Of a stretch of DNA of 37,395 nt, positions 2,760-30,823 are shown one piece after another. A program made the position numbers and the translations under genes. Within the stretch, counting starts at the first letter, position 1. Each line of letters starts with the position of its first letter. The DNA lies in contig JAJDWI010000019.1 in assembly GCA_022825665.1 (NCBI GenBank), forward strand, positions 1 through 37,395, written 5' to 3'. Origin of the DNA: Candidatus Poribacteria bacterium (GTDB lineage Bacteria > Poribacteria > WGA-4E > WGA-3G). Below the pieces are notes generated by a model that saw only the letters and a program-made list of their open reading frames with translations, did not search any database and was not told where the DNA came from.

Positions 2760-2806
2760 TCTGAAAATTTGTATCAATATTTAAAATCTAACGTATAAAT
2801 TATAAA

Positions 2807-3130
2807 ATGCAAAATCCGACAACTTTCAGTTCGCTGTTTAATGAAAATCCGAATCCTGAACCCAAAGTCGCCATGTTTTTTGTTTATTTGGTTTTAGGAT
2901 TATCATTAGGTGTTTTTGGCGCAAGTATATGGTTTTCATCTTATGCAAAGGGCGTTTTTTTACAACGTAGACCTACATTTGAAAAGCAGCGTGAGAAAAT
3001 ACAAGATGAAATCCGAAAACTTGAGTTGGAGGAAAATGCGTTAACTGATGTTGATAGGGTGCGTTCACTTATTAAGGAATTAGGTTTAGTTGAACCTACA
3101 TTAAAAACATTAGAACTACATGATAGATAG
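2807..3130 (+). CDS. ftsL: FtsL-like bitopic division protein
   Basis: A 107-residue protein with a short cytoplasmic N-terminus, one membrane helix (about residues 22-45) and a charged, heptad-like C-terminal half (about 60-105) suited to a periplasmic coiled coil. Sequence identity within FtsL is always low. The call rests on topology, size and position between rsmH and ftsI, where ftsL sits in most dcw clusters. FtsL with FtsB and FtsQ recruits and activates the FtsW-FtsI synthase. No ftsB is visible nearby. I see no strong ribosome site before the ATG. Confidence 0.6.
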   Translation: MQNPTTFSSLFNENPNPEPKVAMFFVYLVLGLSLGVFGASIWFSSYAKGVFLQRRPTFEKQREKIQDEIRKLELEENALTDVDRVRSLIKELGLVEPTLKTLELHDR

Positions 3131-6722: not shown

Positions 6723-6789
6723 ATGGGTGGTATGCGTAAATTTGCTGTATCAAGACAGCTGATAACAGGTATATTGGATAGGCATTGAG

Positions 6790-9396: not shown

Positions 9397-9490
9397 TATA
9401 CATCAATTGATTCAGAGTACGGGTAATGATTTGATCAGGATTGAAAAGATGTTACAAAGAACAATTGTATCTGTAAAGGAAATGTAAAAC

Positions 9491-10726: not shown

Positions 10727-10837
10727 ATAATGTATCTGCAGTAATAGGATATCTAACTGCATTCGATTATATAAATCTTTATTAGAACTTTATCATAACA
10801 CTTTATCCACCCAATTATGTTGGAAGCAGCATTATAA

Positions 10838-11956: not shown

Positions 11957-12008
11957 TAGTATATGACGTAGATAACTCCTGCTTATATTTTTCAGATGAG
12001 GTAAATGT

Positions 12009-13538
12009 TTGAAATATCCTAACATGAACAGATATGCAGGAAAAAGAATCACGATTTTTGGAGCAAATCGCAGTGGTATCGCAATTGCACGATTACTTTT
12101 TGACCTTGGTGCAATTATATCTCTTACAGATACTCGTGACTCAGGTGCATTAGCTGAAGAAATATCTCAATTAGACGGATTACAGTTACAATATTACCTT
12201 GGTGGACATGATGAATCTTGTATTGCCAATGCTGAATTAATAGTCGTTTCACCGGGAGTTCCATTAGATATTCCGATTTTAGTTGAGGCGAAGAATAGAG
12301 ATATTTCTATTTTAGGAGAATTGGAAATCTCAGCAAGTCTATGTCGAGCTCCTATTGTAGCGATTACTGGGACAAAAGGAAAATCCACAACAACCCTTTT
12401 GACAGCAGCCATTCTTGAGAAGAGTAACCTTTTTTCTTCTGTGGTAGTTGCCGGAAATATAGGCGTTCCGTTAGCAAGTAAGGTGGGAACTGTTACAAAG
12501 AACGATATTGTAGTCGTAGAAGCAAGCAGTTTCCAATTAGAGAGTACAGACACTTTCTGTCCAGAGGTGAGTGTGGTGCTAAATGTTTCACGGGATCATC
12601 TCGATCGCCATCAAACAATGGATGCGTATTTTAACGCAAAACGCAAAATATACGCCAATCAGACTGAGAAGGACTGGATCGTGCTGAATGCATCAGACCC
12701 AAGAGTAAAAGGTCTTAACAACGACAATGATGCTAAAAAAGCATATTTTACTGATAGTCTTGAACATGCAGAGATGGAGCTGAATTTATTATGTCAACAG
12801 TTAGAATCGGATATAGGAGCGCGTTTGCAAAGTAAGGTAGACACTGCTGACATTTACACTTTTATAGACAGACAGGAACATTGGATTTGTAATACTGCAG
12901 AAATACCGTTAGCTGGAGCTCATAATGTTCGGAACACACTTGCTTCTGTTGTTATTGGCACTATCTACGGTGTTAAACCCACGGACATTAGAAATGCTAT
13001 CCTTGAATTCAACCGGACACATCCTGCTCTTGAACATGCTTATGAAAAAGTAAGTGTTATCAATGGAGTAGATTACATAAACGATTCAAAGGCAACAAAC
13101 GTCTTAGCAACATACGCTGCACTTGAATCAATCCAAGTATCATCACATCAAAATGGGAAAGCAAAACGTGTATATTTAATCATTGGTGGTTTTGATAAAG
13201 GTAACGATTACGCATCCATTATTGAACTTGTCAACACCAAGGTTAAGGTTTTGATATTGCTTGGAGAACATACACAGAACATACAAAAGGAACTTGCAGG
13301 TTGTGCTGAGATGTTTCATGCTGCAACAATGGAAGCTGCCGTTGAATTTGCACATAACCAAGCAACACAAGGTAACATTGTGCTTTTGTCTCCTGCAAAT
13401 GCGAGTTTTGATATGTATACAAATTATAAAGAACGTGGTGAAGATTTTAAAAGAGTTGTAAAATCACTTGACCCCAAATTGGACACAAAAATAAACACAA
13501 ACAATTTATATGCAAAATCAAAATACACTGAATTATAG
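12009..13538 (+). CDS. murD: UDP-N-acetylmuramoylalanine--D-glutamate ligase MurD
   Basis: Adds D-Glu to UDP-MurNAc-L-Ala in the cytoplasm. The protein is 509 residues, somewhat longer than usual. It has an N-terminal Rossmann-like UDP-binding domain (ITIFGANRSGIA), P-loop GTKGKST (121-127), the central-domain VLNVSRDHLDRHQTMDAYFNAKRKI with the carbamylated-lysine region, and C-terminal NDSKATN. The start is taken at TTG 12009 because GAGG at 11998-12001 is well spaced for it. The ATG at 12024 would remove only five residues. The 3' end overlaps ftsW by 29 bases. Confidence 0.93.
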   Translation: MKYPNMNRYAGKRITIFGANRSGIAIARLLFDLGAIISLTDTRDSGALAEEISQLDGLQLQYYLGGHDESCIANAELIVVSPGVPLDIPILVEAKNRDISILGELEISASLCRAPIVAITGTKGKSTTTLLTAAILEKSNLFSSVVVAGNIGVPLASKVGTVTKNDIVVVEASSFQLESTDTFCPEVSVVLNVSRDHLDRHQTMDAYFNAKRKIYANQTEKDWIVLNASDPRVKGLNNDNDAKKAYFTDSLEHAEMELNLLCQQLESDIGARLQSKVDTADIYTFIDRQEHWICNTAEIPLAGAHNVRNTLASVVIGTIYGVKPTDIRNAILEFNRTHPALEHAYEKVSVINGVDYINDSKATNVLATYAALESIQVSSHQNGKAKRVYLIIGGFDKGNDYASIIELVNTKVKVLILLGEHTQNIQKELAGCAEMFHAATMEAAVEFAHNQATQGNIVLLSPANASFDMYTNYKERGEDFKRVVKSLDPKLDTKINTNNLYAKSKYTEL

Positions 13539-14721
13539 TAGTTCGACTGCATTTTCATCTGATCGAGCTCGTCCACAAATTTCGGGTGTCGGTAGAGTAG
13601 ATACCGGTTTGCTTGCTGTTACACTATGCTTGGTGGGAATAGGAATATTGATGGTATATAGTGCGGGGCATGTATTATCAAACAATCAGTATGGAAACAA
13701 CTTTCACTATTTGAGAATTCAAGTCATTGCTTGTGTAATAGGTTTAGTTGGTATGGGGATTGCTTCATACATCCCGTATAGGTTTTATGAAAAGTATAGT
13801 AATTTGCTACTTTTCCTTGCATTTGTATTATTGATCCTTGTTTTTACACCTATAGGTATGGGTGTAAGTGGAGCAGAAGGTGGTACTTTTAGACGATGGA
13901 TTGCAATAAAGAGTATTCGGTTTCAACCTGTGGAATTTGCGAAAATTGCCTTGCTAATTCATACAGCACATTTCTTAGCAAGAAAACCGGAACGTATTAA
14001 AAGTTTTTTTCATGGCGTGTTACCTAACATTCTTATAATTGGTTTGATGTTTGGATTAGTTGCCAAACAACCTGATTTTGGTTCTGCAGTCCTTTTAGCA
14101 GCAACCGCAGGATGTCTGCTGTTCATTGGAGGTATCAGACTATCTCACACGTTCATGTTAGTAGGTGCTGGTGTATCATTGCTGGCAGGATTCATTATAA
14201 GTAGTCCATATAGGCTAAAACGTTTGACGGATTACTGGGCATCCTTACAATCGCCGGATGCAACGAGTTTTCAGTTGGGACGTTCATTGGAAGCACTGAA
14301 ATGGGGTGGTTTTTTCGGTGTAGGAATTGATGACAGTTCAGCAAAAATCAATTATTTACCATATCCGCATACAGATTTTATTTTTTCAGTCTTAGGAGAA
14401 GAATTTGGTTTTATCGGCGCAGCAAGCGTTACAATTATCTTTATGATATTTGTGTGGCGCGGGATTTCAATTGCAAGACGCACTGAAAACAGGTTTGGGG
14501 CACTTTTCGCGACTGGACTAACGTTAATCATTGGACTACAAGCATTCATCAATATCGGTGTTGTAACAGGATTACTGCCAACAAAAGGTATTACACTTCC
14601 ATTTCTCAGTTATGGAGGTTCGTCTCTTGTAATAAGTTTAGTCAGTGTAGGTATACTCTTAAATATATCCAGAAGTGCTACAAGGACATTACCAAAAGCA
14701 AGAAAAAATGAACCTAAATAA
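13510..14721 (+). CDS. ftsW: SEDS-family division glycosyltransferase FtsW
   Basis: A polytopic SEDS protein that polymerises lipid II at the septum together with FtsI. The 403-residue product has about ten membrane helices after a polar N-terminus of about 30 residues. Signatures: VDTGLLAVTLCLVGIGILMVYSA in the first helix, RRWI, FQPVEFAKIALLI, KQPDFGSAVLL (with the SEDS aspartate region), and PTKGITLPFLSYGGSSL near the end. The reading frame starts inside the end of murD (29-base overlap), so coupled translation is likely. Confidence 0.94.
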   Translation: MQNQNTLNYSSSTAFSSDRARPQISGVGRVDTGLLAVTLCLVGIGILMVYSAGHVLSNNQYGNNFHYLRIQVIACVIGLVGMGIASYIPYRFYEKYSNLLLFLAFVLLILVFTPIGMGVSGAEGGTFRRWIAIKSIRFQPVEFAKIALLIHTAHFLARKPERIKSFFHGVLPNILIIGLMFGLVAKQPDFGSAVLLAATAGCLLFIGGIRLSHTFMLVGAGVSLLAGFIISSPYRLKRLTDYWASLQSPDATSFQLGRSLEALKWGGFFGVGIDDSSAKINYLPYPHTDFIFSVLGEEFGFIGAASVTIIFMIFVWRGISIARRTENRFGALFATGLTLIIGLQAFINIGVVTGLLPTKGITLPFLSYGGSSLVISLVSVGILLNISRSATRTLPKARKNEPK

Positions 14722-14791
14722 AGACTGCTAATTATAAATACTCTGGTAAGATAGTATCAATATTTGACAAGACCAACCCACTTAAATGTAA

Positions 14792-16039
14792 GTGATATTA
14801 GTTGATGTGAAAAATCAGAATACACAACAGAAACGGCAAGACACTATAAACGAAAATATAAATAAGAAAATACATGTGAAAAGGTTCGTATTTGCTGGTG
14901 GTGGTACAGGTGGACATATATATCCTGCCATTGGTATTGCCCAAGCCCTTCAGCGACTCAATCCAAAGATAGACCTTGTATTTATTGGTGGACGAGACCG
15001 ATTAGAATCGACACTTGTTCCACAACAAGGCTTCAATTTTCTACCTATTACCGTAGAAGGATTCCCACGCAGCTTGACATTGAAGTGGATCCCTGTTATA
15101 ATAAAAACTTGTCAAGGACTGCTGCAGTCGTTGAAATATTTGAAGCAATTAAAGCCGGAGGTGGTTATAGGAACAGGCGGGTATGTATCAGGTCCCGTTC
15201 TTTTTGCTGCTTGGTTAATGGATATTCCGATAGCGATTCAGGAGCAAAATGTGTCACCAGGATTGACGAATAGTATTCTTGCACGTTGGGCAAAGGCAGC
15301 GTATCTTGCATTACCACCAAATAACCAACGATTTCCCGAACATATTGTTCAGGTGACAGGTAACCCGATTCGTCTCGGTATAACAGAATATCCACGGAAT
15401 GACGAAACTTACAACAAATACAATCTATCTCCATTACGTAAAACGGTCTTCGTAATGGGAGGTAGTCAGGGGGCACGCGCAATAAATGAAGTGATGATTG
15501 ATGCTTGTCCATTAATTGCTAAGTTTGCTATGTCTGATGATCAGGAAATGGATAGAGACAACATAGATATGCATAAGTCTTCAAATTCGTGTAATATCCA
15601 GATTGTACATCAGACAGGAAAATCCCATGTTGAAGAAGTGCGAGACGCGTATGTTCAACATGGAATTCCACATCATGTTCAATCTTTTTTTGATACTGTA
15701 GAAGAAATATATAGCATTACAGATGTAATGATATGTAGAGCTGGTGGTATGACGGTATCTGAAGTAACCGCTTGCGGTATTCCAGCAATTTTCATCCCGT
15801 TGCCTGCCGCTATTGGAAATAACCAGGTAATCAATGCAAAATCAGTTGCAAATTCTGGCGCAGCAGTAGTACTTGAACAGGATAAGTTTACACCCGAGGA
15901 CCTTGTGGATCATCTAATCAATATTCTCACAGAGGAAGAAACATATCAACAGATGAGAGCTGCATCTAAAGATTTAGGACGACCGTTTGCCTGTGATACT
16001 ATTGCCGAGTCGCTTTATAAACTTACAGAGGCATTGTAA
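14792..16039 (+). CDS. murG: UDP-GlcNAc:lipid I N-acetylglucosaminyltransferase MurG
   Basis: A peripheral membrane glycosyltransferase that turns lipid I into lipid II. Signatures: FAGGGTGGHIYPAIGIA (N-terminal glycine loop), IGTGGYVSGPV, QEQNVSPG, VTGNPIR, VMGGSQGARAIN and CRAGGMTVSEV...IPLPAAIGNNQ. A polar insert (near residues 240-265) lengthens the C-terminal domain. The start is uncertain. GTG 14792 gives a Lys/Asn/Gln-rich leader of about 28 residues without family resemblance. GTG 14876 would begin right before the conserved RFVFAGGGTGGH. Neither has a clear ribosome site. Confidence 0.94.
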   Translation: MILVDVKNQNTQQKRQDTINENINKKIHVKRFVFAGGGTGGHIYPAIGIAQALQRLNPKIDLVFIGGRDRLESTLVPQQGFNFLPITVEGFPRSLTLKWIPVIIKTCQGLLQSLKYLKQLKPEVVIGTGGYVSGPVLFAAWLMDIPIAIQEQNVSPGLTNSILARWAKAAYLALPPNNQRFPEHIVQVTGNPIRLGITEYPRNDETYNKYNLSPLRKTVFVMGGSQGARAINEVMIDACPLIAKFAMSDDQEMDRDNIDMHKSSNSCNIQIVHQTGKSHVEEVRDAYVQHGIPHHVQSFFDTVEEIYSITDVMICRAGGMTVSEVTACGIPAIFIPLPAAIGNNQVINAKSVANSGAAVVLEQDKFTPEDLVDHLINILTEEETYQQMRAASKDLGRPFACDTIAESLYKLTEAL

Positions 16040-16101
16040 ACATAAGACTTATTTAGGTGTTTTAATTTATTCAATTTTGGTTTCGGTTTTGGAGGTAAGT
16101 G

Positions 16102-17466
16102 TTGTTTGGTAAAACTCAACACATCCATTTTATAGGTATAGGTGGGGCGGGATTAAGTGGTATTGCAGAAGTCCTTCTTGACCACAAATTTGATGTAACC
16201 GGTTCAGACATAAAAAAAACTGCAACAACAGAGCATTTAAAGACCTGTGGTGCAAAAATCTGGTATGGTCATGCTGCTACTCAAGTTAATGGAGCGGATG
16301 TTGTTGTTATGTCGCCAGCAATTCCATCAGATAATCCGGAATTGCAAGCTGCCTTGTTCGCCAAAATCCCTATTATTAGGGGTGCTGAAATGCTGAATGA
16401 AATAACACGTATGCGGTATAGTATTGCAGTTAGTGGAACACACGGTAAGACGACCACTACAGCAATGACTGCCGCTGTTTTGTCAACACTTGACCCAACG
16501 GTAATTGTAGGAGGTAAGTTAGTTGATGGTAGTAACGCACGAAGCGGTCATGGAAATGTGATGGTAATTGAAGCAGATGAGGCATACGGTTCCATAGATA
16601 TGATTTATCCGACAATCGCTGTTGTAACATCAGTTGATGCAGATCATTTGGACTACTATGACAGCGTTGAAGAAATCGGAGAGACTTTTCTTACCTTCAT
16701 TAACAAAGTGCCATTTTATGGTTCTGCTGTCCTGTGTCTTGACCAAGAAAACATACAAAAACTCATTCCACAAATTGAAAAGAAATTCCTCACATACGGT
16801 CTTGATACTCGCGCAGATTTGATTGCAGAGGAAATTGAGATAGATGGACCCACTTCCCATTATCAAGTGCGTTACAATGGAGTACTGTGTGGAAAAGTCC
16901 ATCTTAAAATGCCCGGTCGACACAACATCTCAAACTCTTTAGCTGCTATAGCAGTTGGACTCGAATTGGATATTTCATTCGAAAATATACGTCAAGCACT
17001 TGAATCCTTTCAAGGGGTTCATAGACGATTCGAGGTATTAGGATCAGTCGATGACATTGTTGTCGTTGATGACTATGCGCACAACCCTGCGAAATTAATG
17101 GCAGCATTACGAGGGGCAAGAGAAGGTTATAACCGGCGCATCGTAGCAGTTTTTCAACCGCACCGATACGCCCGAGTCCGTGACCTTGCAGAAGAGTTCT
17201 CCAGATCCTTTTATCAGGCAGATATATTGATTGTTACCTCTATCTTTGGAGCTGGTGAAGAACCGATTGAAAATGTAACAGGAGAAAATCTCGCTAATGC
17301 CATAGAAGCACATGGACACCCAAATGTAATCTACATATCAGATATGGGTGATGTGGTTAATCATCTACTGGAGATTACACGTCCCAATGATTTGGTTATT
17401 ACACTTGGAGCGGGTGATATCGTAAATGTAGGTCATAAATTTTTAAGTAGACTTTCCACAGAATAG
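16102..17466 (+). CDS. murC: UDP-N-acetylmuramate--L-alanine ligase MurC
   Basis: Adds L-Ala to UDP-MurNAc, the first Mur ligase step. Features: IHFIGIGGAGLSGIAEVL (N-terminal Rossmann domain), GTHGKT P-loop (about 112-117), IEADEAYGS, VTSVDADHLDYY, and VDDYAHNPAKL plus FQPHRYARVRDL in the C-terminal domain. Length is about 454 residues, normal for MurC. A strong GGAGG (16091-16095) lies six bases before TTG 16102 but only three before GTG 16099, so TTG is the better start. The difference is one residue. It precedes ftsQ by 11 bases. Confidence 0.95.
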   Translation: MFGKTQHIHFIGIGGAGLSGIAEVLLDHKFDVTGSDIKKTATTEHLKTCGAKIWYGHAATQVNGADVVVMSPAIPSDNPELQAALFAKIPIIRGAEMLNEITRMRYSIAVSGTHGKTTTTAMTAAVLSTLDPTVIVGGKLVDGSNARSGHGNVMVIEADEAYGSIDMIYPTIAVVTSVDADHLDYYDSVEEIGETFLTFINKVPFYGSAVLCLDQENIQKLIPQIEKKFLTYGLDTRADLIAEEIEIDGPTSHYQVRYNGVLCGKVHLKMPGRHNISNSLAAIAVGLELDISFENIRQALESFQGVHRRFEVLGSVDDIVVVDDYAHNPAKLMAALRGAREGYNRRIVAVFQPHRYARVRDLAEEFSRSFYQADILIVTSIFGAGEEPIENVTGENLANAIEAHGHPNVIYISDMGDVVNHLLEITRPNDLVITLGAGDIVNVGHKFLSRLSTE

Positions 17467-17477
17467 AGTGTAATACA

Positions 17478-18434
17478 ATGGAATTACTTAAAGCTGGTAA
17501 ACATAGAAATGATGGTCCTGTGCATCGAATCATAAAATCAAAGGGTAACCAGAACGCAAAATATCGTGTGCGAAGGATGGTTATAGTCGTTACTGTTTTA
17601 ATAACGATGTTGTATATAGGAAAGATTCTTCTTGGTTTTTTTGATTTACAACACGTGCACGTATCCATTGTACTTGCAGGTAATTCTCATTATACAGAAG
17701 GTGATATTTATGATGTTTTAGGAGATAATCTTGAAAATATCATAATGGATTCTGAAGCTAAAACTGTTACATATTTGAAGGACAATCTGAGTTATGTTAA
17801 AAATGCTCATGTTTCCAAAAACTATGTCAAACGACAGTTGACTATTGAAATTATTGAACGTGTACCATTTGCGCGATTAAAACATATCATATTAACTGAA
17901 AAGAGAGCAAAAGAATCCAATCAACAAAACACTGATAAGAAAAACACACATCAATATTATTTAATAGACGATGCAGGTTATGTGTTAGAATCTATTACAT
18001 CAGAAAGAGAAAACCACTTGGCACTAATACTGGATGAAGGGATTAAAGAACCAGAAATTGGTAAACAAATCAAAACTGGTACAACGCAACGTGGTATACA
18101 TATCATCAAACTCGTAAGGTTGAGAAAGCCGGAACTAAGTCCACATTTGACGAGTATTGATGCACGAGTGTCTGATATGATAACAATTAATATTGGCATT
18201 TTGCCGATGCAAGCATGGATCTCATCGGACATGATTGAGACAGGTTTAAACCATATTTGGTTGTTCATAAAACAACAAGGTCTACACATCCTGCAGAGAG
18301 AAAAAATGCGTGTGCAAGGAACAACATTTTTGAATAAACGTGGAAATAATAAGAAAATTAACATACCAGAAACAATAACATATTTAGATGCACGATATAA
18401 AGATACACTATTTTTAGGAGGAGAAAGCAGATAG
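17478..18434 (+). CDS. ftsQ: FtsQ/DivIB-type division protein with POTRA domain
   Basis: Bitopic division protein of 318 residues. It has a basic cytoplasmic N-terminus (1-33), one membrane helix (about 34-54) and an extracytoplasmic POTRA-like region starting VLAGNSHYTEGDIYDVLG. This is followed by VKNAHVSKNYVKRQLTIEIIERVPFA (the beta domain) and YYLIDDAGYVLES, the recurring FtsQ segment. It links early and late divisome proteins. The stop codon abuts the ftsA ATG. The leader of ftsA (AGGAGGAG) lies inside the end of this gene. Confidence 0.88.
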   Translation: MELLKAGKHRNDGPVHRIIKSKGNQNAKYRVRRMVIVVTVLITMLYIGKILLGFFDLQHVHVSIVLAGNSHYTEGDIYDVLGDNLENIIMDSEAKTVTYLKDNLSYVKNAHVSKNYVKRQLTIEIIERVPFARLKHIILTEKRAKESNQQNTDKKNTHQYYLIDDAGYVLESITSERENHLALILDEGIKEPEIGKQIKTGTTQRGIHIIKLVRLRKPELSPHLTSIDARVSDMITINIGILPMQAWISSDMIETGLNHIWLFIKQQGLHILQREKMRVQGTTFLNKRGNNKKINIPETITYLDARYKDTLFLGGESR

Positions 18435-19670
18435 ATGGCAAAAGGAACAATTATCACCGGCTTGGATATCGGCTCGAGTAAGATCTCTGTTGTAGTGTGC
18501 CATGCCCTGCCAAGTTTAGATGGAGAGATGGAAATTATCGGAGTCGGTGCTGCAAGTTCACAAGGGTTACGAAGAGGAGTCGTAACCGACATCAATCTGA
18601 CTGCAGGTGCGATTCGAGAGGCAATCTCAGAAGCTGAACTCATGGCAGGGGTCAATATAGAGTCAGTGTGTTTAGGGATAACAGGTGAGCATGTTGTGGG
18701 ACAAACTTCACGCGGTGTCGTGACAGTAAAAAATAGTTCTCAGATAACTAAGGATGATGTAGACCGAGCAGTGCAATCAGCACGAACAATTGCTGCTATC
18801 CCGGAAGGTCATGATATTCTACATGTGATTGAACAGAACTTTATTATTGATATGGATAATAGGATTAAGGAACCGATTGGCATGTCTGGTTCTCGTTTAG
18901 AAGCAAACGCATATATTATTACTGGTAATTCAAGTGGAATTCAAAGTCTTCTAAATAGCGTTGAAAGTGCAGAGATTCCAAGTGTGGAAACACTTGCCAT
19001 TGCACCTATGGCATCTGCCAAAGCTGTCTTGCAAAGAGATGAACGTGAAGTGGGTATTGCCCTTGCAGATATCGGTGATCAAACAACAGAAATCATTGTA
19101 TACAAAGAAGATGCTATTGAGCATGTAGTTGTATTTCCGGTTGGCGGTCAACATGTAACAAACGATATTGCTCAATATTTAAAGGTAACGCTCCCCATGG
19201 CTGAAGAACTGAAACTTCACCGGGGATGTGCATGGACTGAGTGGGTAACTGAAGAAGATACTAATCCTGTTCCGATTACAACAGGATCTACACCTCCACG
19301 ATTTATCAGTCGATTCGAATTAGCACAAATTATTGAATTCCGAATGGCACAAATTCTTGAAGCAATTGCAAGCGAACTTGGGGACTTACAACTGCCTGGT
19401 GGACTTGTGTTAACAGGCGGAACAGCACTAATGGATGGTTTGACTGAACTTGCAGAACATGTATTACAGGTACGTGTCCAAGTCGGATATCCAAAGGAAC
19501 TGAAAGGCTTAACGGATCGTGTAAATTATCCAATGTATTCAACGAGTTTAGGGTTAGCGATGTATGGAGAATCCTTACGCCGCGAAGAAAAGCAAGCTCA
19601 TGCTTTACGACGTAGTTCAGGTTGGTTTGGCGGATTTTTTCGTAATATAAAGGAATGGTTCGGTTATTAA
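18435..19670 (+). CDS. ftsA: Cell division protein FtsA
   Basis: An actin-like ATPase that tethers FtsZ to the membrane. The 411-residue protein opens with ITGLDIGSSKISVVV (phosphate 1 loop) and contains the SHS2/1C region, DIGDQTTEIIVY (phosphate 2) and GGLVLTGGTALMDGL (adenosine loop). It ends with the amphipathic tail WFGGFFRNIKEWFGY that serves as the membrane-targeting helix. A strong ribosome site, AGGAGGAG, lies at about 18417-18424. Unusually, ftsZ does not follow directly: 608 non-coding bases separate them. Confidence 0.96.
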   Translation: MAKGTIITGLDIGSSKISVVVCHALPSLDGEMEIIGVGAASSQGLRRGVVTDINLTAGAIREAISEAELMAGVNIESVCLGITGEHVVGQTSRGVVTVKNSSQITKDDVDRAVQSARTIAAIPEGHDILHVIEQNFIIDMDNRIKEPIGMSGSRLEANAYIITGNSSGIQSLLNSVESAEIPSVETLAIAPMASAKAVLQRDEREVGIALADIGDQTTEIIVYKEDAIEHVVVFPVGGQHVTNDIAQYLKVTLPMAEELKLHRGCAWTEWVTEEDTNPVPITTGSTPPRFISRFELAQIIEFRMAQILEAIASELGDLQLPGGLVLTGGTALMDGLTELAEHVLQVRVQVGYPKELKGLTDRVNYPMYSTSLGLAMYGESLRREEKQAHALRRSSGWFGGFFRNIKEWFGY

Positions 19671-20278
19671 ATTAATCTACAGCATTACAACACACATTTA
19701 ATCTTATATAAGTCTATGAAGGCAAATAACATAAAAATGTAAATTACCTATATTATATCCATGATTTAACTGACGAGAATACTGACACACCACTGAAATT
19801 CACTTTTCTCCATACTATAGCAATATATTGATTTAAAATAAATTCTAATGTATAATTTTAACTAATAGGTCTATAATACTAATATAATCATACGAAAATA
19901 CTAATATAATCATACGAATTGAAGTAATCGTAGATTTGTAAAAGGTGAAAACAGAAATTTTGTTAACTTAATAATGATATCTTAAATCAAGAGAAACAGT
20001 TACTTGATTAAATCTAAATTCTCTACTTTCAATATTATCGTAAATTAACACTTTAGGGGTAAATGGGATAGTGTTATATTGATTGCTAAACTAAAAGTGT
20101 ACTATGAACGTATTAAAATTCACATTGTAATAGTGCTTGAAAAAATTGAAATACTTTTGAAGTGGGAGGTATAAGGTTACCATTGGAAATACAACATTAT
20201 ATAACTATTCAAAAGGATGTTATATGCTGCTGCGGATGCACCGAAGGATGAGTTGTCCAAAGGTGACTGAAAAAAATA
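19671..20278. other. Non-coding ftsA-ftsZ gap with a short tandem repeat
   Basis: I find no credible gene in these 608 very AT-rich bases. A 21-base unit beginning ATACTAATATAATC occurs twice in tandem (19876-19896 and 19898-19918, period 22). The gap probably holds a separate ftsZ promoter, since ftsZ is normally made at higher levels than its upstream genes, but I could not identify one with confidence. A 22-codon frame starting at 20224 overlaps the ftsZ start and has no supporting evidence. Confidence 0.6.
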
Positions 20279-21607
20279 ATGATAGATTTTGAACAAGAAG
20301 AATTTGATAATGCGAGTGCGAAAATAAAGGTTATTGGTGTTGGTGGAGCAGGCGGAAATGCTGTAAGACGTATGATAGAAGCAGGTCTCACTGGCATTGA
20401 GTTTTATGCTGTAAACACTGACCAACAGGCACTTAGCACATGCCATGGGGCGAAACAAATTCCGATTGGAATGAGCACAACCAATGGATTGGGTGCAGGT
20501 GCAAATCCTGAGATCGGAAAAAAGGCTGCTGATGAAGACCGAGAAGTTTTACAAGAAATTGTTGATTCTGCAAACATGGTTTTTGTTGCAGCAGGTATGG
20601 GCGGTGGTACAGGAACTGGCGCAGCACCGGTTGTAGCAGCTCTCGCTAAGGAGAAGGGTGCTTTAACAATTGGTGTTGTTACTCGTCCATTTAATTTTGA
20701 GGGTAGGCATCGTGCAGAAAAGGCTGATATTGGATTGAATGAGCTTCGAATAAGTGCTGACTCTGTCATCGTAGTTCCAAACCAACGTCTGATAGACACC
20801 ATTGACAGGAAACTCCCTATTCCAGAAGCATTCAAAATAGGCGACGAGATTCTATTACACGGTGTTCAGAGCATCTCCGATATTATTACGGAGGCTGGTG
20901 AAATTAATGTAGACTTTGCTGACGTTGAAACTGTCATGCGTGATGCAGGAACAGCCTTGATGGGGATGGGGCGAGCCACTGGAGATAATCGGGCTCAAGC
21001 CGCCGCCGCTGCTGCTATTTCCTCAGATCTTCTTGAAGAAAACAGTATTGCAGGTGCTGTTGGCATGATCGTAAATATCACATCACCCCCAGATTTTACA
21101 ATGGCGGAATTGGATGACACGATGCGAGTAATTGTAGAAGCTTCTCAAGATGCACAACCGATCTTTGGATTGGTCTATAAGGATGAATTGGAACTCAACG
21201 ATGAAGTGTTGGTGACTGTAATTGCTACAGGATTTGACCCGCCTTCTGATCCAAGTCATATATCAAGACCAAGTGGAGGATTCAGTGGACAAGGTGGTCA
21301 ACCGAATCCGATGTTCCAAGGCAGCCGTGTTCGTAATACTGAATCCAGTGGTGGTGGACGTGGACAACAGGGCACACAACGTCCTGCATGGGATAGACAA
21401 CCTCAGGAAAGAAAGGACGAGAGGGCACCTGCATCTACGCAATCGAGAACACCTGCTTCTCAACGGCAGCAACCACAACAAAAGACACAAGATGAACCTG
21501 AAAATGATCAGGATGCAAATAATGAACAAGAACAGAACCGAGAAAAACAGTGGGATATCCCAGCATTTCTTCGTGTTCAACAACGTCGGGATAAACGAAG
21601 AAACTAA
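20279..21607 (+). CDS. ftsZ: Cell division GTPase FtsZ
   Basis: A tubulin homologue that forms the Z ring. The 442-residue protein has IKVIGVGGAGGNAVRRM at the nucleotide-binding N-terminus, the tubulin signature GGGTGTG (108-114), FNFEGRHR, and NVDFADVETVM of the T7 loop. The globular part ends near residue 325. A linker of about 100 residues, rich in Gln, Arg, Ser and Gly, leads to the conserved C-terminal peptide WDIPAFLR, which binds FtsA and other partners, and a basic end. A ribosome site, AAAGGTGA, lies about 11 bases upstream. Confidence 0.98.
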   Translation: MIDFEQEEFDNASAKIKVIGVGGAGGNAVRRMIEAGLTGIEFYAVNTDQQALSTCHGAKQIPIGMSTTNGLGAGANPEIGKKAADEDREVLQEIVDSANMVFVAAGMGGGTGTGAAPVVAALAKEKGALTIGVVTRPFNFEGRHRAEKADIGLNELRISADSVIVVPNQRLIDTIDRKLPIPEAFKIGDEILLHGVQSISDIITEAGEINVDFADVETVMRDAGTALMGMGRATGDNRAQAAAAAAISSDLLEENSIAGAVGMIVNITSPPDFTMAELDDTMRVIVEASQDAQPIFGLVYKDELELNDEVLVTVIATGFDPPSDPSHISRPSGGFSGQGGQPNPMFQGSRVRNTESSGGGRGQQGTQRPAWDRQPQERKDERAPASTQSRTPASQRQQPQQKTQDEPENDQDANNEQEQNREKQWDIPAFLRVQQRRDKRRN

Positions 21608-24514: not shown

Positions 24515-25138
24515 CTATAGCGATTCCAATTCATTCAATGCAGTGATAATCTGATCCGAAGATGTTCGATGACCAAACCTTGCACCAAGGTCTTTCCAAG
24601 CGATCTTTCCATTCTCATCAATAATGTAGGTGGCAGGACGTGCGTGATTCGGATTGCCATGTTGTTCAGCCACGTTGTAATCACCGATAGTAAGTGTATC
24701 CTCATCTGAAAGAAGTAGATAGGTAATACCTAAATTATTGTTATTGAGCAAGTTACGCAGTCCAAATGAGCTATCACTGCTTATTGCAATCAGTTCTTCT
24801 GCGCCAGCAGATTTGATATCTGTATAACCATTTTGCAACTCACCGAGTTGCCCTTTACATACAGTTCAGGTACTCGTTGCAAAAAAGACGAGGACTACCT
24901 TCTTACCATCATAACCTGACAAGGAATGTAGATTACCATCTGCATCTGGCAGTGAAAATGCGGGTGCTGTTTCTCCAATTGATAGACCATCTCCATCAGG
25001 TAAAGGATCGAAAGTTGGTTCTTCAGGTATTGTTAATATATTTTCCGGCAGCGTATCAGTATCAAGGCAACTAAAACCTATTAATGTCACGGCAATTAGT
25101 GTGACAAACGAAAGTCCATTAATAAGTTTATTCATCAT
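24515..25138 (-). CDS. Thioredoxin/peroxiredoxin-like selenoprotein (UxxC), probable lipoprotein
   Basis: Read through one in-frame TGA (24866-24868) this is a 207-residue AhpC/TSA- or TlpA-like protein. Without readthrough it splits into two frames that are each half a domain. The order is a signal with a possible lipobox (IGFSC), an acidic linker, then APAFSLPDADGN, VVLVFFATST-Sec-TVCKGQLGEL, and PATYIIDENGKIAWKDLGAR. Sec91 and Cys94 occupy the CxxC position of thioredoxin-fold oxidoreductases, so the protein probably reduces peroxides or disulfides outside the cytoplasm. ATG 25138 is chosen because AAGGAG lies about 9 bases before it. The start overlaps the sulfatase stop by 11 bases. A SECIS-like hairpin follows the TGA. 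Confidence 0.88.
24835..24868 (-). promoter_or_regulatory. bSECIS element for the redoxin selenoprotein
   Basis: Read on the minus strand, 21 bases after the TGA comes the loop of a perfect 7-bp hairpin: GCAACTC, loop GGT, GAGTTGC (plus-strand 24835-24851). A 3-base apical loop starting with GG, at this distance, fits the published loose consensus for bacterial selenocysteine insertion elements bound by SelB. Confidence 0.82.
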
Positions 25139-26447
25139 ACTCAATTTCTCCTTTATCTCCTTGTGTTTGCATCCATTTTTGAATATCAGCACGCATCTGT
25201 TCAAGAATCGGTTGTAGTGTTGGATCATAAGCAATATTGTCAAATTCGTAAGGATCTGCAGTTATATCATACAGTTCCTCAACAGGATGGTGTTGTGTTA
25301 AATAAACAAGTTTAGCAGTATTTGGGTCATGTTTTGCTTTTTCCACCCAACTGTTCCATACCTCTGCATGACTTTCTGGTATACCCTCTACTTGTGTGAA
25401 ATGTGTTGTCCAAGTATTTTCAGGCATAAGGTTTAAGATATATTTATATTGGTTATTTCTAACACATCTTTGTGGGAATACGTTCATGTTTCCATCGCGC
25501 GTATGTGTGCCGTATATTTTATCACGAAAAGTTGCATGTTGTCCACACAAAACTTCCTTGTAACTTTTACCATCTAAATCTTCAGAAGGTTCCCCTCCGG
25601 CAATATCTATTAGGGTAGGTAAAAAGTCAATATGAGAAATTATTGCGTCTGAAACAGAACCCTTTGGAACGACACCTTGCCACCTTGCGATAAATGGAAG
25701 ATGTATACCTGTATCATACAATGTCCACTTGCAGTGGGGCCATTCGGATCCGTGATCAGTTGTATATATAAAAAGTGTGTTATCTGAGTATCCGTGTGTT
25801 TCTAATATTCTATCAATCTCTCCAATACGGGTATCCATCGTAGTGATATCCTGATAGTAGTTGGCAAGTGCTTTCCGTGCAATGGGTGTATCTGCTATAT
25901 AGGGTGGTAAAGGTAATGTGTTGGGGTCATATATCTTGTTCGGTTCCCAAGTAACATGTGGGTTGCTATCGCCTAAAATAAGACAGAGCGGTTGATTAGG
26001 ATTTTCTTGTTGATGGGTGGATAGAAATTTTTCAACTGGATCGGTGTCAAGACCTTCTGCGCGGTATTTACGTCTATGTTCTTCCTGTTTTGGAAGAAAT
26101 CCACCGACATATTCAAAATCAAAGAGTGATGCAGGTTTCACATGTGTTTTTCCTGCGATTGCAACCCTATAGCCTTGTTTGCGTAGCAGTTTTGGTAAGG
26201 TATCAAGTGTTGCATGACATTCTGTATGGTTTCCCATAGCACCGTGTCGCGTAGGATATAGTCCTGTGTATAGTGTGGAACGTGAAGGCGCGCAGGTAGG
26301 TGTTGGTGTAAATGCTTGCGTAAAACGCATTCCATGTTCAGCAATGCGATCTAAGTGTGGTGTTTTGATGTGTGTATTTCCGTAGCAACCGAGGTATTCC
26401 CTCCCATGATCATCGGATAGATAGACTATGATATTTGGTTTCATCAT
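25128..26447 (-). CDS. Type I sulfatase (formylglycine-dependent)
   Basis: A 439-residue alkaline-phosphatase-superfamily sulfatase. IIVYLSDDHGREYLGCYGN supplies the N-terminal metal aspartates (Asp12, Asp13). CAPSRSTLYTGLYPTRHG contains Cys52 in the C-x-P-S-R signature that an anaerobic or aerobic maturase turns into formylglycine. YTTDHGSEWPH holds the second metal site. I see no signal peptide, so it may act in the cytoplasm, or export may be by another route. The substrate is unknown but likely a sulfated sugar. The start overlaps the PhyH stop by one base (TAATG), and the stop overlaps the downstream selenoprotein, so the three genes form a tight operon. Confidence 0.92.
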   Translation of the reverse strand: MMKPNIIVYLSDDHGREYLGCYGNTHIKTPHLDRIAEHGMRFTQAFTPTPTCAPSRSTLYTGLYPTRHGAMGNHTECHATLDTLPKLLRKQGYRVAIAGKTHVKPASLFDFEYVGGFLPKQEEHRRKYRAEGLDTDPVEKFLSTHQQENPNQPLCLILGDSNPHVTWEPNKIYDPNTLPLPPYIADTPIARKALANYYQDITTMDTRIGEIDRILETHGYSDNTLFIYTTDHGSEWPHCKWTLYDTGIHLPFIARWQGVVPKGSVSDAIISHIDFLPTLIDIAGGEPSEDLDGKSYKEVLCGQHATFRDKIYGTHTRDGNMNVFPQRCVRNNQYKYILNLMPENTWTTHFTQVEGIPESHAEVWNSWVEKAKHDPNTAKLVYLTQHHPVEELYDITADPYEFDNIAYDPTLQPILEQMRADIQKWMQTQGDKGEIEYDE

Positions 26448-27304
26448 TAATATCCCTCAGCTGTTGGGAACGGTTTCATTTTCTCAGTGTTCTTGATTTC
26501 TATTTCAACAGCTTCTGGCGGGAATTGAGTACATACTTCACCATCTTTCATTGCCCAACGGGTTTGCGGAGGCATACGTATGCTATTTCTTACAATATCA
26601 GGATTTGTCCATACCCCAGCAACAGCAATACGACTCTTGTCGCTTTTATTAGGAGGACTATAGTGCCACATATTGCTATGCCAAAACACCACATCGCCAG
26701 GTTCTAATTCTATGTGATGCACACCTTGTTTTTTCGTCATCTCCTTAACTGCTTCCCGTGGTAGTTCTCCGTGGATACTATCTGGATATAGCACATGTTG
26801 TATAATATCTGTCTTATGACTTCCTGGGATAAACTGCATGCATCCATTTTCTTGCGTAGCCGGTTCAAGTGGCATCCAGAAGTTGAAAGGTTCTGTCTCA
26901 CCATCACGCCAAAGTCCGTTATCTTGATGCCAAGGTGTAGCACTGCCAGTGTGAGCAGGTTTTAGGAAACAACTATTATATTTGACTAATATATCACTAC
27001 CGAGAAAGTGACGTGCTATGTTTAGCAATTTCTCACCAGCATGAATGTTATGCCATATTAAAGGTGATTGAACACAGAAGTTGGCTAATTTCCTGTAGCG
27101 TGCAATGCGTCCTTGTGGTGAGTCATCCATTGGATTCATTGGATCTAAGTTAGCAAACTGACCGGGTTCCGGCAACATAATGACATTACGGATCACCCCA
27201 CGTAGTTCAGCAGCGAGGTCCGCAGAAATTATATTGTGGAGTATAAAGTATCCTTCCGACTCATATTGCGTCTTTTGTTTCTCAGTTGGTTGCCATAGTG
27301 ACAT
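26447..27304 (-). CDS. Phytanoyl-CoA dioxygenase (PhyH) family Fe(II)/2-oxoglutarate oxygenase
   Basis: About 285 residues from ATG 27304, which has AAGGAG about 12 bases upstream. A TTG at 27343 would add 13 residues but lies upstream of that ribosome site. The iron ligands are His126-x-Asp128 in TPWHQDNGLW and probably His214 in MWHYSPPNKSDKSR, whose Arg225 would bind 2-oxoglutarate. GCMQFIPGSHK is another family hallmark. Members hydroxylate varied small molecules, and the substrate here cannot be read from sequence. It is the first gene of the PhyH, sulfatase, redoxin operon, which hints at breakdown of a sulfated or modified organic compound. Confidence 0.9.
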   Translation of the reverse strand: MSLWQPTEKQKTQYESEGYFILHNIISADLAAELRGVIRNVIMLPEPGQFANLDPMNPMDDSPQGRIARYRKLANFCVQSPLIWHNIHAGEKLLNIARHFLGSDILVKYNSCFLKPAHTGSATPWHQDNGLWRDGETEPFNFWMPLEPATQENGCMQFIPGSHKTDIIQHVLYPDSIHGELPREAVKEMTKKQGVHHIELEPGDVVFWHSNMWHYSPPNKSDKSRIAVAGVWTNPDIVRNSIRMPPQTRWAMKDGEVCTQFPPEAVEIEIKNTEKMKPFPTAEGY

Positions 27305-27636
27305 AGAAATTATATCTCTCCTTGATGAACAGAATAATACCAATGCATTTGGATAATAAAGACATTTTTAAGTCAAAAAATGCATTTTTATTGTAACCAT
27401 TACTTTTATTTTTACGTAGATTTTTTAAAGGGTATATTTTAGTAAGGAAACTATGCTGGCATAGGTGTTTTAAGTGATTTTTGTTAAATTAGTAGGAATA
27501 TTGTCAATAATTCCTAAAAGTGAAATTTAACATAAATTGAATACAGTGTCAAGCAATTCTGGATGTATCTATTCATCCTCTTTCCCAACACATAATTTTG
27601 TAATTATCGCTGTACTACCACATTTGCGGGATCAAA

Positions 27637-28386
27637 ATGCTCACGAAAGAAATGGTGCAAGACGCGCCTTTGGATCCGGGAGTCTACTTTTTTTATGGTG
27701 CTTCTGGTAAAATCCTATATATCGGTAAGGCAAAATGTCTGCGTAAACGGGTCCGCTCCTATATCCATAATGTAAAGAACAGACGTTCCAAAATCAAACG
27801 ACTTATCCGTTGGACGACTGCTGTCCGTTATCATGTGTGTCAATCTGAGCAAGAGGCACTTTTCCTTGAATCGCGTTTAATTAAAAAACATCTACCCTCA
27901 TATAATTCCGCTTTGAAGTATGGAACTCAAACGTGGTATATTCGTATTGATGTTTCCGATGATTTTCCGCTACTTGAAAGAGTTCCTGAGATTCAATCAG
28001 ACAATGCAAGATATTTCGGTCCACTTTCCAGTCGTAGATGGACTGATGAAGCGATTGATGTTTTACAACGGATATTTATGGTTAGAACATGTCAAGGAAT
28101 CATTACACCTAATGCTGGCTATAGAGCGTGCTTACAATACGATATGAAGCGTTGTTATGCTCCGTGTGCTGCACTCATTACAAGGGAACTTTATAGAGAA
28201 ATAATAATGAATATTATCAATCTACTTGATGGTGAGTATGAGAAAGTGCAAGCGAATTTATTAGCAAAGCGGAATAGTGCATCTGCGATGTTACAATTTG
28301 AAAGGGCTGCTGCAATACATAAACAGATGTTACGTCTTCAAAAAATCTTCCCTTTTCTGGATGCACATAGAGAGAAACCTTACTAA
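27637..28386 (+). CDS. Short UvrC-like GIY-YIG nuclease (N-terminal half of UvrC)
   Basis: A 249-residue protein equivalent to only the N-terminal part of UvrC. The GIY-YIG domain (GVYFFY...ILYIGKA, about 15-32, with the downstream Arg and Glu in EALFLESRLIKKHLP) makes the 3' incision in UvrC. The four cysteines Cys152, Cys165, Cys173 and Cys177 match the spacing of the iron-sulfur ligands of UvrC. A UVR (UvrB-binding) segment lies near 212-240 (ASAMLQFERAAAIHKQMLRL). The RNase H-like 5'-incision domain and the helix-hairpin-helix are absent: the frame simply ends at a TAA. It differs from Cho-type proteins in keeping the UVR motif. It may be a stand-alone nuclease or a truncated uvrC. Confidence 0.82.
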   Translation: MLTKEMVQDAPLDPGVYFFYGASGKILYIGKAKCLRKRVRSYIHNVKNRRSKIKRLIRWTTAVRYHVCQSEQEALFLESRLIKKHLPSYNSALKYGTQTWYIRIDVSDDFPLLERVPEIQSDNARYFGPLSSRRWTDEAIDVLQRIFMVRTCQGIITPNAGYRACLQYDMKRCYAPCAALITRELYREIIMNIINLLDGEYEKVQANLLAKRNSASAMLQFERAAAIHKQMLRLQKIFPFLDAHREKPY

Positions 28387-28586: not shown

Positions 28587-28616
28587 TTGACAGCATCAGT
28601 AATAATATGATAATAT
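28587..28616 (+). promoter_or_regulatory. Sigma-70-type promoter for the Sec-HMA genes
   Basis: A consensus -35 box TTGACA (28587-28592), an 18-base spacer, and a near-consensus -10 box TAATAT (28611-28616) are followed about 15 bases later by the strong ribosome site AAAGGAGGT (28632-28640). It is the clearest promoter in the window, and it suggests high expression of the first selenoprotein. Confidence 0.75.
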
Positions 28617-28646
28617 GGTAATGTAAATAACAAAGGAGGTATAACG

Positions 28647-29030
28647 ATGAGAATCGCGAAATATGCGCTGATTACACTCGTTACCTTTGCGCTCCTGACA
28701 GGTTGTGGTATGATTGGAAAGCAGGCAGAGATGCCTGAAGACACCACTATGGTTGCGGAAGAAAAACCGATGGACGAAATCTCGGTGCCGACACCAGAAA
28801 AATCATCCTATCAGGAAGTGACACTTCAGGTGGAGGGCATGACTTGAGCATCGTGTCCCGCCGCAGTGCAGGATGCACTGAGTAAGGTCACAGGTGTTGC
28901 AGAGGTCATTAGTGTAGAAAGATCCACTAAGAAGGCTGTCGTTAAAGTTGAAAAGGGCAAAGTTTCTAACGATGCTCTGATTAAAGCCGTTGAAGCAGAT
29001 CCTCGTTTTACGGTATCATCCGTTAATTAA
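28647..29030 (+). CDS. Selenocysteine-containing HMA-domain lipoprotein 1
   Basis: Translated through an in-frame TGA at 28845-28847 this is a 127-residue protein. A lipoprotein signal (LLTGC lipobox, Cys about 20) and an acidic linker lead to a single heavy-metal-associated domain: VTLQVEGMT-Sec-ASCPAAVQDAL, GVAEVISVERSTKKAVVKV, and ALIKAVEA. Sec67 takes the place of the first cysteine of the GMTCxxC metal-binding motif, and Cys70 is kept. HMA proteins such as MerP and CopZ carry copper, mercury or similar soft metals. Here the site would be selenolate plus thiol, facing the periplasm or cell surface. A strong promoter, ribosome site, SECIS-like hairpin and terminator all frame it. It is a paralogue of the next gene. 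Confidence 0.9.
28845..28880 (+). promoter_or_regulatory. bSECIS element of HMA selenoprotein 1
   Basis: CAGTGCA, loop GGA, TGCACTG (28864-28880) is a perfect 7-bp stem with a 3-base loop beginning GG. The loop starts 24 bases after the TGA. Stem, loop and spacing fit bacterial SECIS rules and match the redoxin hairpin almost exactly in shape. Confidence 0.85.
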
Positions 29031-29038
29031 CGACACTT

Positions 29039-29067
29039 AAGGGCGGGGTTACTCGCCCTTTATTTTT
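29039..29067 (+). terminator. Terminator after HMA selenoprotein 1
   Basis: AAGGGCG (29039-29045) pairs with CGCCCTT (29054-29060), followed by TATTTTTATA. It lies between the two HMA genes, so the second gene may rely on readthrough or on its own promoter. Confidence 0.75.
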
Positions 29068-29121
29068 ATAATCAATAATGTTATTCATAATTCGTAAGAA
29101 CAAATTTATAAGGAAAAAAGA

Positions 29122-29490
29122 ATGTTAAAAAGAGCACTCATCTGCATAGTAATGTTGGTTGTTATCTTTGGATGTGCTAACCAGAAAGACTCTGCAGAGG
29201 ACACAACAGAAGCAACAGAGACAACTGAACAGGTAGATGCAAACGTTGCTATTGAAGAAATCAGTTTACAAGTTACAGGTATGACGTGAAGTGATTGTGT
29301 CGCCAGTGTGCAGTCTGCACTTAAAAAAGTTGAAGGCGTTACTGAGATAGTCAGTGTTTCTCAATCGGATGGTAAAGCAGTTGTGAAGGTCAAAAAGGAT
29401 CAAGTTAAAGCTGCTACTTTGGTAGAAGCTGTCGCAGCAGCTGATGAAGTTGATGGAAAACCGCTTTTTACAGCAAAAGTAATTGAATAA
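29122..29490 (+). CDS. Selenocysteine-containing HMA-domain lipoprotein 2
   Basis: Read through the TGA at 29287-29289 this gives 122 residues. A lipoprotein signal (VVIFGC, Cys18) is followed by a Thr/Glu-rich linker and one HMA domain: ISLQVTGMT-Sec-SDCVASVQSALKKV, GVTEIVSVSQSDGKAVVKV, and a C-terminal strand. Sec56 replaces the first motif cysteine and Cys59 is the partner. The gene and its upstream neighbour share layout and TGA position, so they arose by duplication and both kept selenocysteine. The ribosome site is AAGGA, about 9 bases before the ATG. A caller that stops at TGA would keep only a C-terminal fragment starting at 29308. Confidence 0.9.
29287..29320 (+). promoter_or_regulatory. 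bSECIS element of HMA selenoprotein 2
   Basis: GTGCA, loop GTC, TGCAC (29308-29320) forms a 5-bp stem extended by weaker pairs. The loop begins with G, 24 bases after the TGA, the same spacing as in the upstream paralogue. It is weaker than the other two hairpins but conserved in position. Confidence 0.7.
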
Positions 29491-29620: not shown

Positions 29621-30823
29621 ATGAAATTCTTATTAATGGGAAGTGTAGTCGTTATGATTCTGATGCATTCTATGCCTATATGTGCTAATGAAAAATCACC
29701 AGTATTTGAGGAGATTGACCCCTATTTGGCTACACCGGCACTTGGACATCTTTATGAAATACCTGTTGTCATAATGAGGTATTTACCTACAGCAGATGGT
29801 AAGAATGTGGATGTTAACAAAGCACCCGATTTTTACGACTTGGGTGAAATGTCCTTGAAAGAACTCAAGTCAAAGATAGATCTATATGACAAACGAGTGA
29901 AGTTTATGCTTGAAGAGGGAACTCGTTTTAGAGGTTATAAGAATTCTTCTGCTGTACCTTCCATTGGTTATAGAGTTGTGGAATATATCACTGTATATGA
30001 ACAGACTCCACAAGGACCGGTTTCTACTCACCTAAAGGATGGAACACCGTTGTACTCTCCTGACTACCATAAGATATTCGAACGATTTAATATGGAGCAT
30101 TATGTCAACGATTTAGGTGTCAAAGAGATATGGATGTGGATGGGTGGTGTGAATTCTGATTTTCCTTGTTATGATCCTGCTTTGCATAAACCGGAAGATT
30201 TCAGAAACTGGTGGGAATCAAATATGTCAAGTCCGTTGACAGGAGATATTTCGAATAGCAACCGTGATAATACAGACCTACCTATCTACAAATCAACATA
30301 TACTGTGTATGGACAGAATTTTCGACGTAGCCACGCAGAAGCGGTGCATAACCATGGTCATCAGTTGGAAGCGATATTAAGTCATGCGAACCAATTACAA
30401 TTTGGTAATACAGACCTATTTTGGAAGAAGTTTGTTGGTCAAGATGAAGCAGGCGACTTTATTACAGGACGCGCTGGTTGGACCCACATGCCACCAAATA
30501 CAACGAAACACTATGACTACACGGGAACGATGACTCTCGTGGAAAGTGATATTGAAGATTGGACTCCTGATAATAGTGGAACAAAGACTTTGGTGAACGT
30601 TGACACTTATGGTAATCTGAAGTATGAGTGGAAAGAACCTAATCCTGAAAATATTCCACAACGAATTGAGTCTCAATGGTATATCTATTGGATGCAAAAT
30701 ATGCCTGGATATAAGAACGGTATACCGTTTGAGAACAGTGAAATGACGAATTGGTGGGTGTTTACCGCTGATTGGGATAAGGCGATTTCATCCGCTATGG
30801 GTCTTGTTTCCGACCCTAAGTAA
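29621..30823 (+). CDS. Secreted protein of unknown function
   Basis: A 400-residue protein with a clear signal peptide (LLMGSVVVMILMHSMPICA, cleavage near residue 23). I do not recognise the family. The mature part is rich in Trp, Tyr and His. It contains a striking histidine cluster, RSHAEAVHNHGHQLEAIL (about 235-252), and a later THMPPNTTKHYDY, which look like metal-ligand candidates. There is one cysteine in the mature part (in SDFPCYDP). Repeats, membrane helices and coiled coils are not evident. It sits just downstream of the selenoprotein pair but behind a terminator, so a functional link is only possible. Confidence 0.75.
   Translation: MKFLLMGSVVVMILMHSMPICANEKSPVFEEIDPYLATPALGHLYEIPVVIMRYLPTADGKNVDVNKAPDFYDLGEMSLKELKSKIDLYDKRVKFMLEEGTRFRGYKNSSAVPSIGYRVVEYITVYEQTPQGPVSTHLKDGTPLYSPDYHKIFERFNMEHYVNDLGVKEIWMWMGGVNSDFPCYDPALHKPEDFRNWWESNMSSPLTGDISNSNRDNTDLPIYKSTYTVYGQNFRRSHAEAVHNHGHQLEAILSHANQLQFGNTDLFWKKFVGQDEAGDFITGRAGWTHMPPNTTKHYDYTGTMTLVESDIEDWTPDNSGTKTLVNVDTYGNLKYEWKEPNPENIPQRIESQWYIYWMQNMPGYKNGIPFENSEMTNWWVFTADWDKAISSAMGLVSDPK

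Follow-up and report, generated by a model that had tools for sequence, protein, structure and literature searches.

MerP, CopZ and the N-terminal domains of copper ATPases hold metal or pass it on by means of two thiolates. Most selenoproteins are redox enzymes. A 2026 review counts more than 110 prokaryotic selenoprotein families; its entries include a metal-binding protein with a UxxU motif as well as a MerT-type protein, and a UxxC motif is listed for a P-type ATPase (PMC13188914). An earlier survey describes two metagenomic MerP sequences from the Global Ocean Sampling (GOS) in which Sec (selenocysteine) was predicted (PMC2398784). The initial annotation of the locus described here had supposed that isolated Sec-containing MerP-like or HMA sequences might already have been reported; the GOS MerP sequences, the family NF041115, the MerT-CopZ selenoprotein and the P-type ATPase bear this out. 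Here we describe genes of sponge-associated Poribacteria which are predicted to encode exported, copper-chaperone-like proteins with the first metal-binding Cys replaced by Sec.

The window, by which we mean the whole stretch of 37,395 nucleotides that was analysed, is one contig of a Candidatus Poribacteria bacterium genome (4.53 Mb, 95% complete). Two adjacent readthrough frames lie on its plus strand, each with one in-frame TGA at the place of the first Cys of a GMTCxxC motif, and the coordinates proposed for them in the initial annotation were confirmed. Gene A (28647..29030) would encode a lipoprotein-like Sec-HMA protein of 127 amino acids with Sec67 in the motif GMTUASC (UGA codon at 28845..28847), and gene B (29122..29490) one of 122 amino acids with Sec56 in GMTUSDC (UGA codon at 29287..29289). 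Orthologues of gene A were found at L051-L061 and further loci; TGA was present at the motif in all orthologues read, and Cys in some paralogues. The codon of gene B was assigned by the same TGA/Cys comparison of homologues. The best match of gene A was 95% identical, and the closest named records were all metagenome-assembled genomes of Candidatus Poribacteria.

Both genes have the same layout: a short N-terminal signal with a lipobox-like Cys, an acidic linker and a single HMA domain. By eye, the signals end in LTGC (gene A) and IFGC (gene B), and the Cys after the signal was also found in the class I copies read. When Cys was put at the TGA, PF00403 matched across it, at 28821..28994 in gene A and at 29266..29439 in gene B (38.1 and 35.9 bits, cut-off 24.8; E=2e-9 and 1e-8). 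The two genes are 42-45% identical over their whole length, and the homology that had been claimed for both sides of the TGA was upheld.

A sigma-70-like promoter of the pair (28587..28616, plus strand), recognized by consensus match only, consists of TTGACA at 28587-28592 and TAATAT at 28611-28616. The TTGACA element and an A/T-rich -10 region were recognizable in most of the related genomes aligned. Gene A has a strong ribosome-binding site, AAAGGAGG (28632..28639, plus strand), 7 bases before its ATG, which was kept recognizably in the aligned relatives. Conservation upstream of gene A was not found beyond the promoter area in the alignment of relatives. Between genes A and B a terminator-like hairpin followed by a T-rich tract was seen by eye (29039..29068, plus strand).

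Conservation of the UGA codon was assessed with a profile of the Sec-HMA domain (A2), which was used to search 85 Poribacteria genomes and matched 76 of them. Among the loci read there were 102 distinct copies with TGA at the motif, coming from about 50 assembled genomes, and 13 copies with a Cys codon; no copy had any other residue. The restriction of homologues to TGA or Cys at this codon supports the assignment of Sec to the metal-site motif of an exported HMA protein. In an independent GTDB-based collection TGA was kept in 23/23 Poribacteria loci, usually as a tandem pair (Cys in 0/23). Pairwise comparison of the window with the orthologues L052-L056 gave dN values of 0.07-0.11 and dS values of 0.32-0.49 after the TGA; this region is translated as protein under purifying selection, with a constraint similar to that on the part preceding the TGA. 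Retention of TGA in all 23 loci, together with the purifying selection downstream, excludes chance.

The G-M-T residues and the second Cys did not vary in the profile alignment, and hardly varied when the wider set was examined. The residue following Sec was Gly, Ser or Ala in 102/102 copies, and the base following the UGA was G or A, whereas the Cys copies had mostly Asp at the same place. The small residue may reflect either the chemistry of the site or the reading context of the codon. A variant at L191 (about 5217), GMTUGISC, has one extra residue between the ligands. In the window's genome all three Sec-HMA domains (3/3) belong to proteins with an N-terminal signal-like segment, and the only HMA domain without TGA, found in an ATPase-length frame of 751 aa, has kept its Cys (GMHCENC). 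Outside Poribacteria the HMA copies had Cys in 136/136 cases (57 loci, other phyla), a sample that may be biased, since one of the two scan patterns included the Cys position.

The hairpin that had been noted after the TGA was found in both genes, at 28865..28879 in gene A (AGTGCA-GGA-TGCACT) and at 29308..29320 in gene B (GTGCA-GTC-TGCAC; both on the plus strand), and proved common to the other Sec copies. Its consensus, [A/G]GTGCA-G[G/T]N-TGCACT, has six base pairs and starts 17 bases after the UGA. The hairpin lies within the codons of the V-Q-x-A-L segment, so protein conservation alone could produce it. Codon choice, the first of three results that tell the two causes apart, was frozen in the Sec copies: V7 was GTG in 101/102 (19% for Val elsewhere in the domains), Q8 was CAG in 95/95 (33% elsewhere), A10 was GCA in 101/101 (26%) and L11 was always CTN (62%). 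The Cys copies, with nearly unchanged protein sequence, had drifted (GTG in 7/13, CAG in 8/10, GCA in 5/12); as the copies are related, neither the freeze nor the drift counts represent independent events. In the G020 array, the Cys domains have GTT and their Sec sisters GTG.

Within the hairpin 98% of the cells were paired, and compensatory change was observed at two pairs. The fourth pair changed from G-C to A-U in G036 (L171:5118-5150, minus strand), with a concomitant Ala to Val replacement; in G036 the RNA pair is preserved at the expense of the residue. In five copies the innermost pair changed, A-U being replaced by G-C and Gln by Arg. The pair counts exceeded nearly all shuffled controls, but these controls ignore relatedness, and the counts are therefore to be read as support and not as a probability. 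The synonymous freeze in the Sec copies, the drift in the Cys copies and the compensatory pairs indicate that the six-base-pair hairpin is very probably a SECIS element. Like the bacterial SECIS of the fdhF type, which is located directly after the UGA, it has a short stem and, soon after the UGA, a conserved loop G, which is invariant here; it differs in having only three loop bases, a stem of six base pairs and a lower stem that is not conserved. The sequence GCAGTCTGC is much like the apical hairpin of E. coli fdhF. Neither the hairpin nor the stretch upstream of gene A had an Rfam match at gathering score; there was only an insignificant match to rli34.

The initial annotation had proposed a search for the Sec machinery, and all four genes were found in the genome: selA (612 bits), selB (354 bits), selD (362 bits) and selC, encoding tRNA-Sec (78 bits), which starts 60 bases past the end of the selB match. 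The selD gene (L203; genome contig C115:56502-57428) is a selenoprotein gene in its own right, with an in-frame TGA where the GUASK motif is expected. Of the Poribacteria genomes, 70 had both selB and the HMA family, six had the HMA family only, six selB only and three neither; each of the six HMA-only genomes is at most 83% complete. This agreement is at the level expected from incomplete assemblies. Taken alone it is no strong test, since some genomes have selB but lack the family. Taken with the codon and hairpin data, the prediction that Sec is inserted for the first Cys of GMTCxxC by SelB and tRNA-Sec, guided by the hairpin directly after the UGA, is strongly supported.

The tandem lipoprotein pair had been thought distinctive, which turned out to be an understatement: the pair occurs throughout the family of the window's genome, and two further Sec-HMA architectures were found. 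In one of them, exported proteins contain an array of HMA domains, four or five in number; the leading three or four carry Sec, and Cys is found in the final one or two. The array at L163 (6149-7573) has 4 Sec and 1 Cys, that at L161 (4322-5518) has 3 Sec and 2 Cys, and those at L164, L165 and L200 have 3 Sec and 1 Cys each. The arrays look like multi-site binders, and would constitute natural Sec/Cys pairs within one chain. The third architecture is a protein of ~530-580 aa in which an N-terminal CxxCH motif is followed by WD40 repeats and, at the C-terminus, by a Sec-HMA domain; the segment around the CxxCH was recognized as PSCyt1-like by reading, not by a Pfam match. A copy is present in the window's genome (contig C58, L002:1483-3081), and others were found at L183-L187 and L178. 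PSCyt2/PSD1 and DUF1501 proteins are encoded in an operon that includes the gene or lies close to it, and three family f4 genomes have Cys orthologues of it (L188-L190).

In most genomes of the genus gene B is directly followed by orf400 (29621..30823, plus strand), which encodes a predicted exported protein. It had no match in Pfam, NCBIfam or PDB sequences, and its structure model (mean pLDDT 37) was too poor to use. In two related species the mature part of orf400 is fused in frame to gene B (L176, about 5280-6727; L196, about 1630-3090, minus strand), forming one lipoprotein-like chain with the Sec-HMA domain and orf400. The fusion suggests that gene B and orf400 work together in the genus. 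Since orf400 occurs in only 21/83 Poribacteria genomes, it is not essential to the Sec-HMA family as a whole. No metal transporter, metalloregulator or copper gene adjoins the pair, and the neighbouring genes in other families were mixed, with no consistent functional clue. Sulfatase, PhyH and GIY-YIG genes (window 25128-28386) stay beside the pair across much of the family. We take this for conservation of gene order, and found no functional link. Farther away, the window contains cell division and cell wall genes (7765-21607), including those of Mur ligases, FtsW, FtsA and FtsZ.

In the structure model of gene A the HMA domain is confident (pLDDT about 90) and has the order strand-helix-strand-strand-helix-strand; the linker is disordered. 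The best solved match of the model was oxidised MerP (1osd), with a TM-score of 0.90 by target length and 43% identity; copper ATPase domains and CopZ came next. The sequence profile neighbours were copper ATPases, MerP and CopZ. The site originally proposed, a selenolate-thiolate pair on the cell envelope serving a soft metal or redox chemistry, is consistent with the HMA fold.

Our preferred reading, which we regard as probable, is that A and B are exported and probably membrane-anchored HMA selenoproteins whose Sec-x-x-Cys motif acts in the extracytoplasmic space as a clamp for Cu(I) or a comparable soft metal. Once exported and anchored in the membrane, the proteins would present Sec-x-x-Cys as a high-affinity selenolate-thiolate clamp, and the metal would be held or passed on as it is by the two thiolates of the HMA proteins mentioned above. 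On general chemical grounds, a selenolate would have the advantage over a thiolate outside the cell: at the pH of seawater it is deprotonated, it is the stronger rival of chloride for soft metals, and it is more resistant to oxidation. The HMA fold with MerP as its best structural match, the profile neighbours, the retained G-M-T and second Cys and the multi-domain arrays speak for the metal site. As context, every Red Sea sponge species studied accumulated selenium, and every one except a single species accumulated copper (PMC3997428). A broader proposal, quite possible but put forward tentatively, is that the tandem lipoproteins, the poly-HMA arrays with up to four Sec and the PSCyt1-like/WD40 protein belong to one phylum-wide extracytoplasmic soft-metal (probably copper) system, in which Sec would be a structural metal ligand and not a redox catalyst.

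The main rival to the metal clamp is a thiol-selenol redox carrier, in which Sec and Cys would form a reversible selenenylsulfide for periplasmic electron transfer or substrate reduction, the HMA fold being only a scaffold. Three observations count against the metal reading: the lack of a metal gene beside the pair, the UxxC motif, which is common and typical in redox selenoproteins (PMC13188914), and the third architecture, whose joining of Sec-HMA to a protein with a haem-binding-like CxxCH motif suits electron transfer no less than metal handling. A redox carrier would also accord with the small residue after Sec and with the oxidised state of the closest solved structure. However, the fold is not thioredoxin-like, no reductase gene was seen beside the pair, the Gly-Met-Thr of the metal site is kept along with CxxC, and Sec-HMA arrays exist without an attached electron carrier. 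We consider the redox carrier rather unlikely. A narrower metal function, that of a mercury-specific MerP-like scavenger serving mercury resistance, might be suggested by the structural match to MerP and by the Sec-MerP and MerT-CopZ selenoproteins predicted elsewhere. But MerT was absent from all genomes of families f1-f4, the window's genome included; it was matched in 2/83 Poribacteria genomes, one match being under the cut-off and neither lying in the pair-bearing order. No mer genes adjoin the pair, and its MerP scores (49.7 and 31.3) are far under the cut-off of 92.55. With MerT absent, we rejected a mercury operon and hold mercury resistance to be quite improbable; the mercury option left open by the initial annotation is correspondingly weakened.

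Exported poly-Sec proteins might also serve as selenium carriers or stores, loosely like animal selenoprotein P. An exported protein can hold as many as four Sec (L163), and sponges accumulate selenium, the highest levels being found in a symbiont-rich species (PMC3997428). The commonest form has only one Sec per protein, however, and the partner Cys and the HMA fold, needless for storage, are strictly kept, which makes such a role very improbable. That the proteins are not selenoproteins at all, the TGA being a sequencing error, the mark of a pseudogene or an ordinary stop, finds some support in the G052 copy (L174, about 4906-4950), which has, in addition to the TGA at the motif, a TAG replacing a conserved CAG downstream, inside the hairpin. 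This copy may be a pseudogene, an error or a second recoding; one or more of the copies may thus be defunct or wrongly assembled. Yet 102 distinct copies, spread over about 50 assembled genomes, have the same codon, and the full Sec machinery is present. Conservation of the TGA, the synonymous freeze, hairpin pairing with covariation, and purifying selection downstream led us to reject artefact and pseudogene, which we regard as extremely improbable.

A conserved UxxC motif in a metal-chaperone fold, present in most of the phylum and accompanied by natural Cys counterparts in the same proteins, offers a clean test of Sec as a plain metal ligand. Enrichment of selA and selB in sponge symbionts has been described (PMC5649159), and the Sec-HMA family would provide a concrete reason for Poribacteria, and perhaps other sponge symbionts, to keep the costly Sec machinery. 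Wherever annotation takes UGA as a stop, Sec-HMA genes are likely to be truncated or missed.

Among the known systems MerP (TIGR02052; PDB 1osd, 1afi) is like the pair in being a single exported HMA domain with GMTCxxC, and the identity over the fold is 43-44%; the pair differs by Sec at the first Cys, a lipoprotein-like anchor, the tandem arrangement and the lack of a MerT partner. The best selenoprotein family match was NF041115, the UxxU metal-binding (seleno)protein (50.6 and 45.3 bits, cut-off 95). It is also an HMA-type metal-binding selenoprotein, but UxxU implies two Sec per site, whereas the UxxC of the pair has one, with Cys in the second position. The MerT/CopZ fusion-like heavy metal transport selenoprotein NF045683 (44.6 and 26.8 bits, cut-off 375) shares a CopZ-like domain with the pair, which is without the membrane MerT part, and CopZ itself (NF047957; scores of 51.5 and 49.7, cut-off 85) differs from the pair, which has an N-terminal export signal as well. 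The cation-transporting ATPase E1-E2 selenoprotein (PMC13188914) has the same type of motif, UxxC, and belongs to a soft-metal ATPase family, but it is a membrane pump. The GOS protein (PMC2398784) resembles the pair in being of the MerP type with predicted Sec; it is represented by two metagenomic sequences, and the passage that describes them names neither motif nor organism. Membership of a known curated family was rejected, every NCBIfam match being under its cut-off. Our literature search, which covered few subscription journals or preprints and is accordingly weak evidence, found no report linking Poribacteria with selenoproteins. As no NCBIfam cut-off was passed and no report was found, we count the Poribacteria family as new among Sec-HMA proteins: Sec in HMA-type proteins was known, and this family apparently adds to it an uncatalogued use of selenium on the cell envelope.
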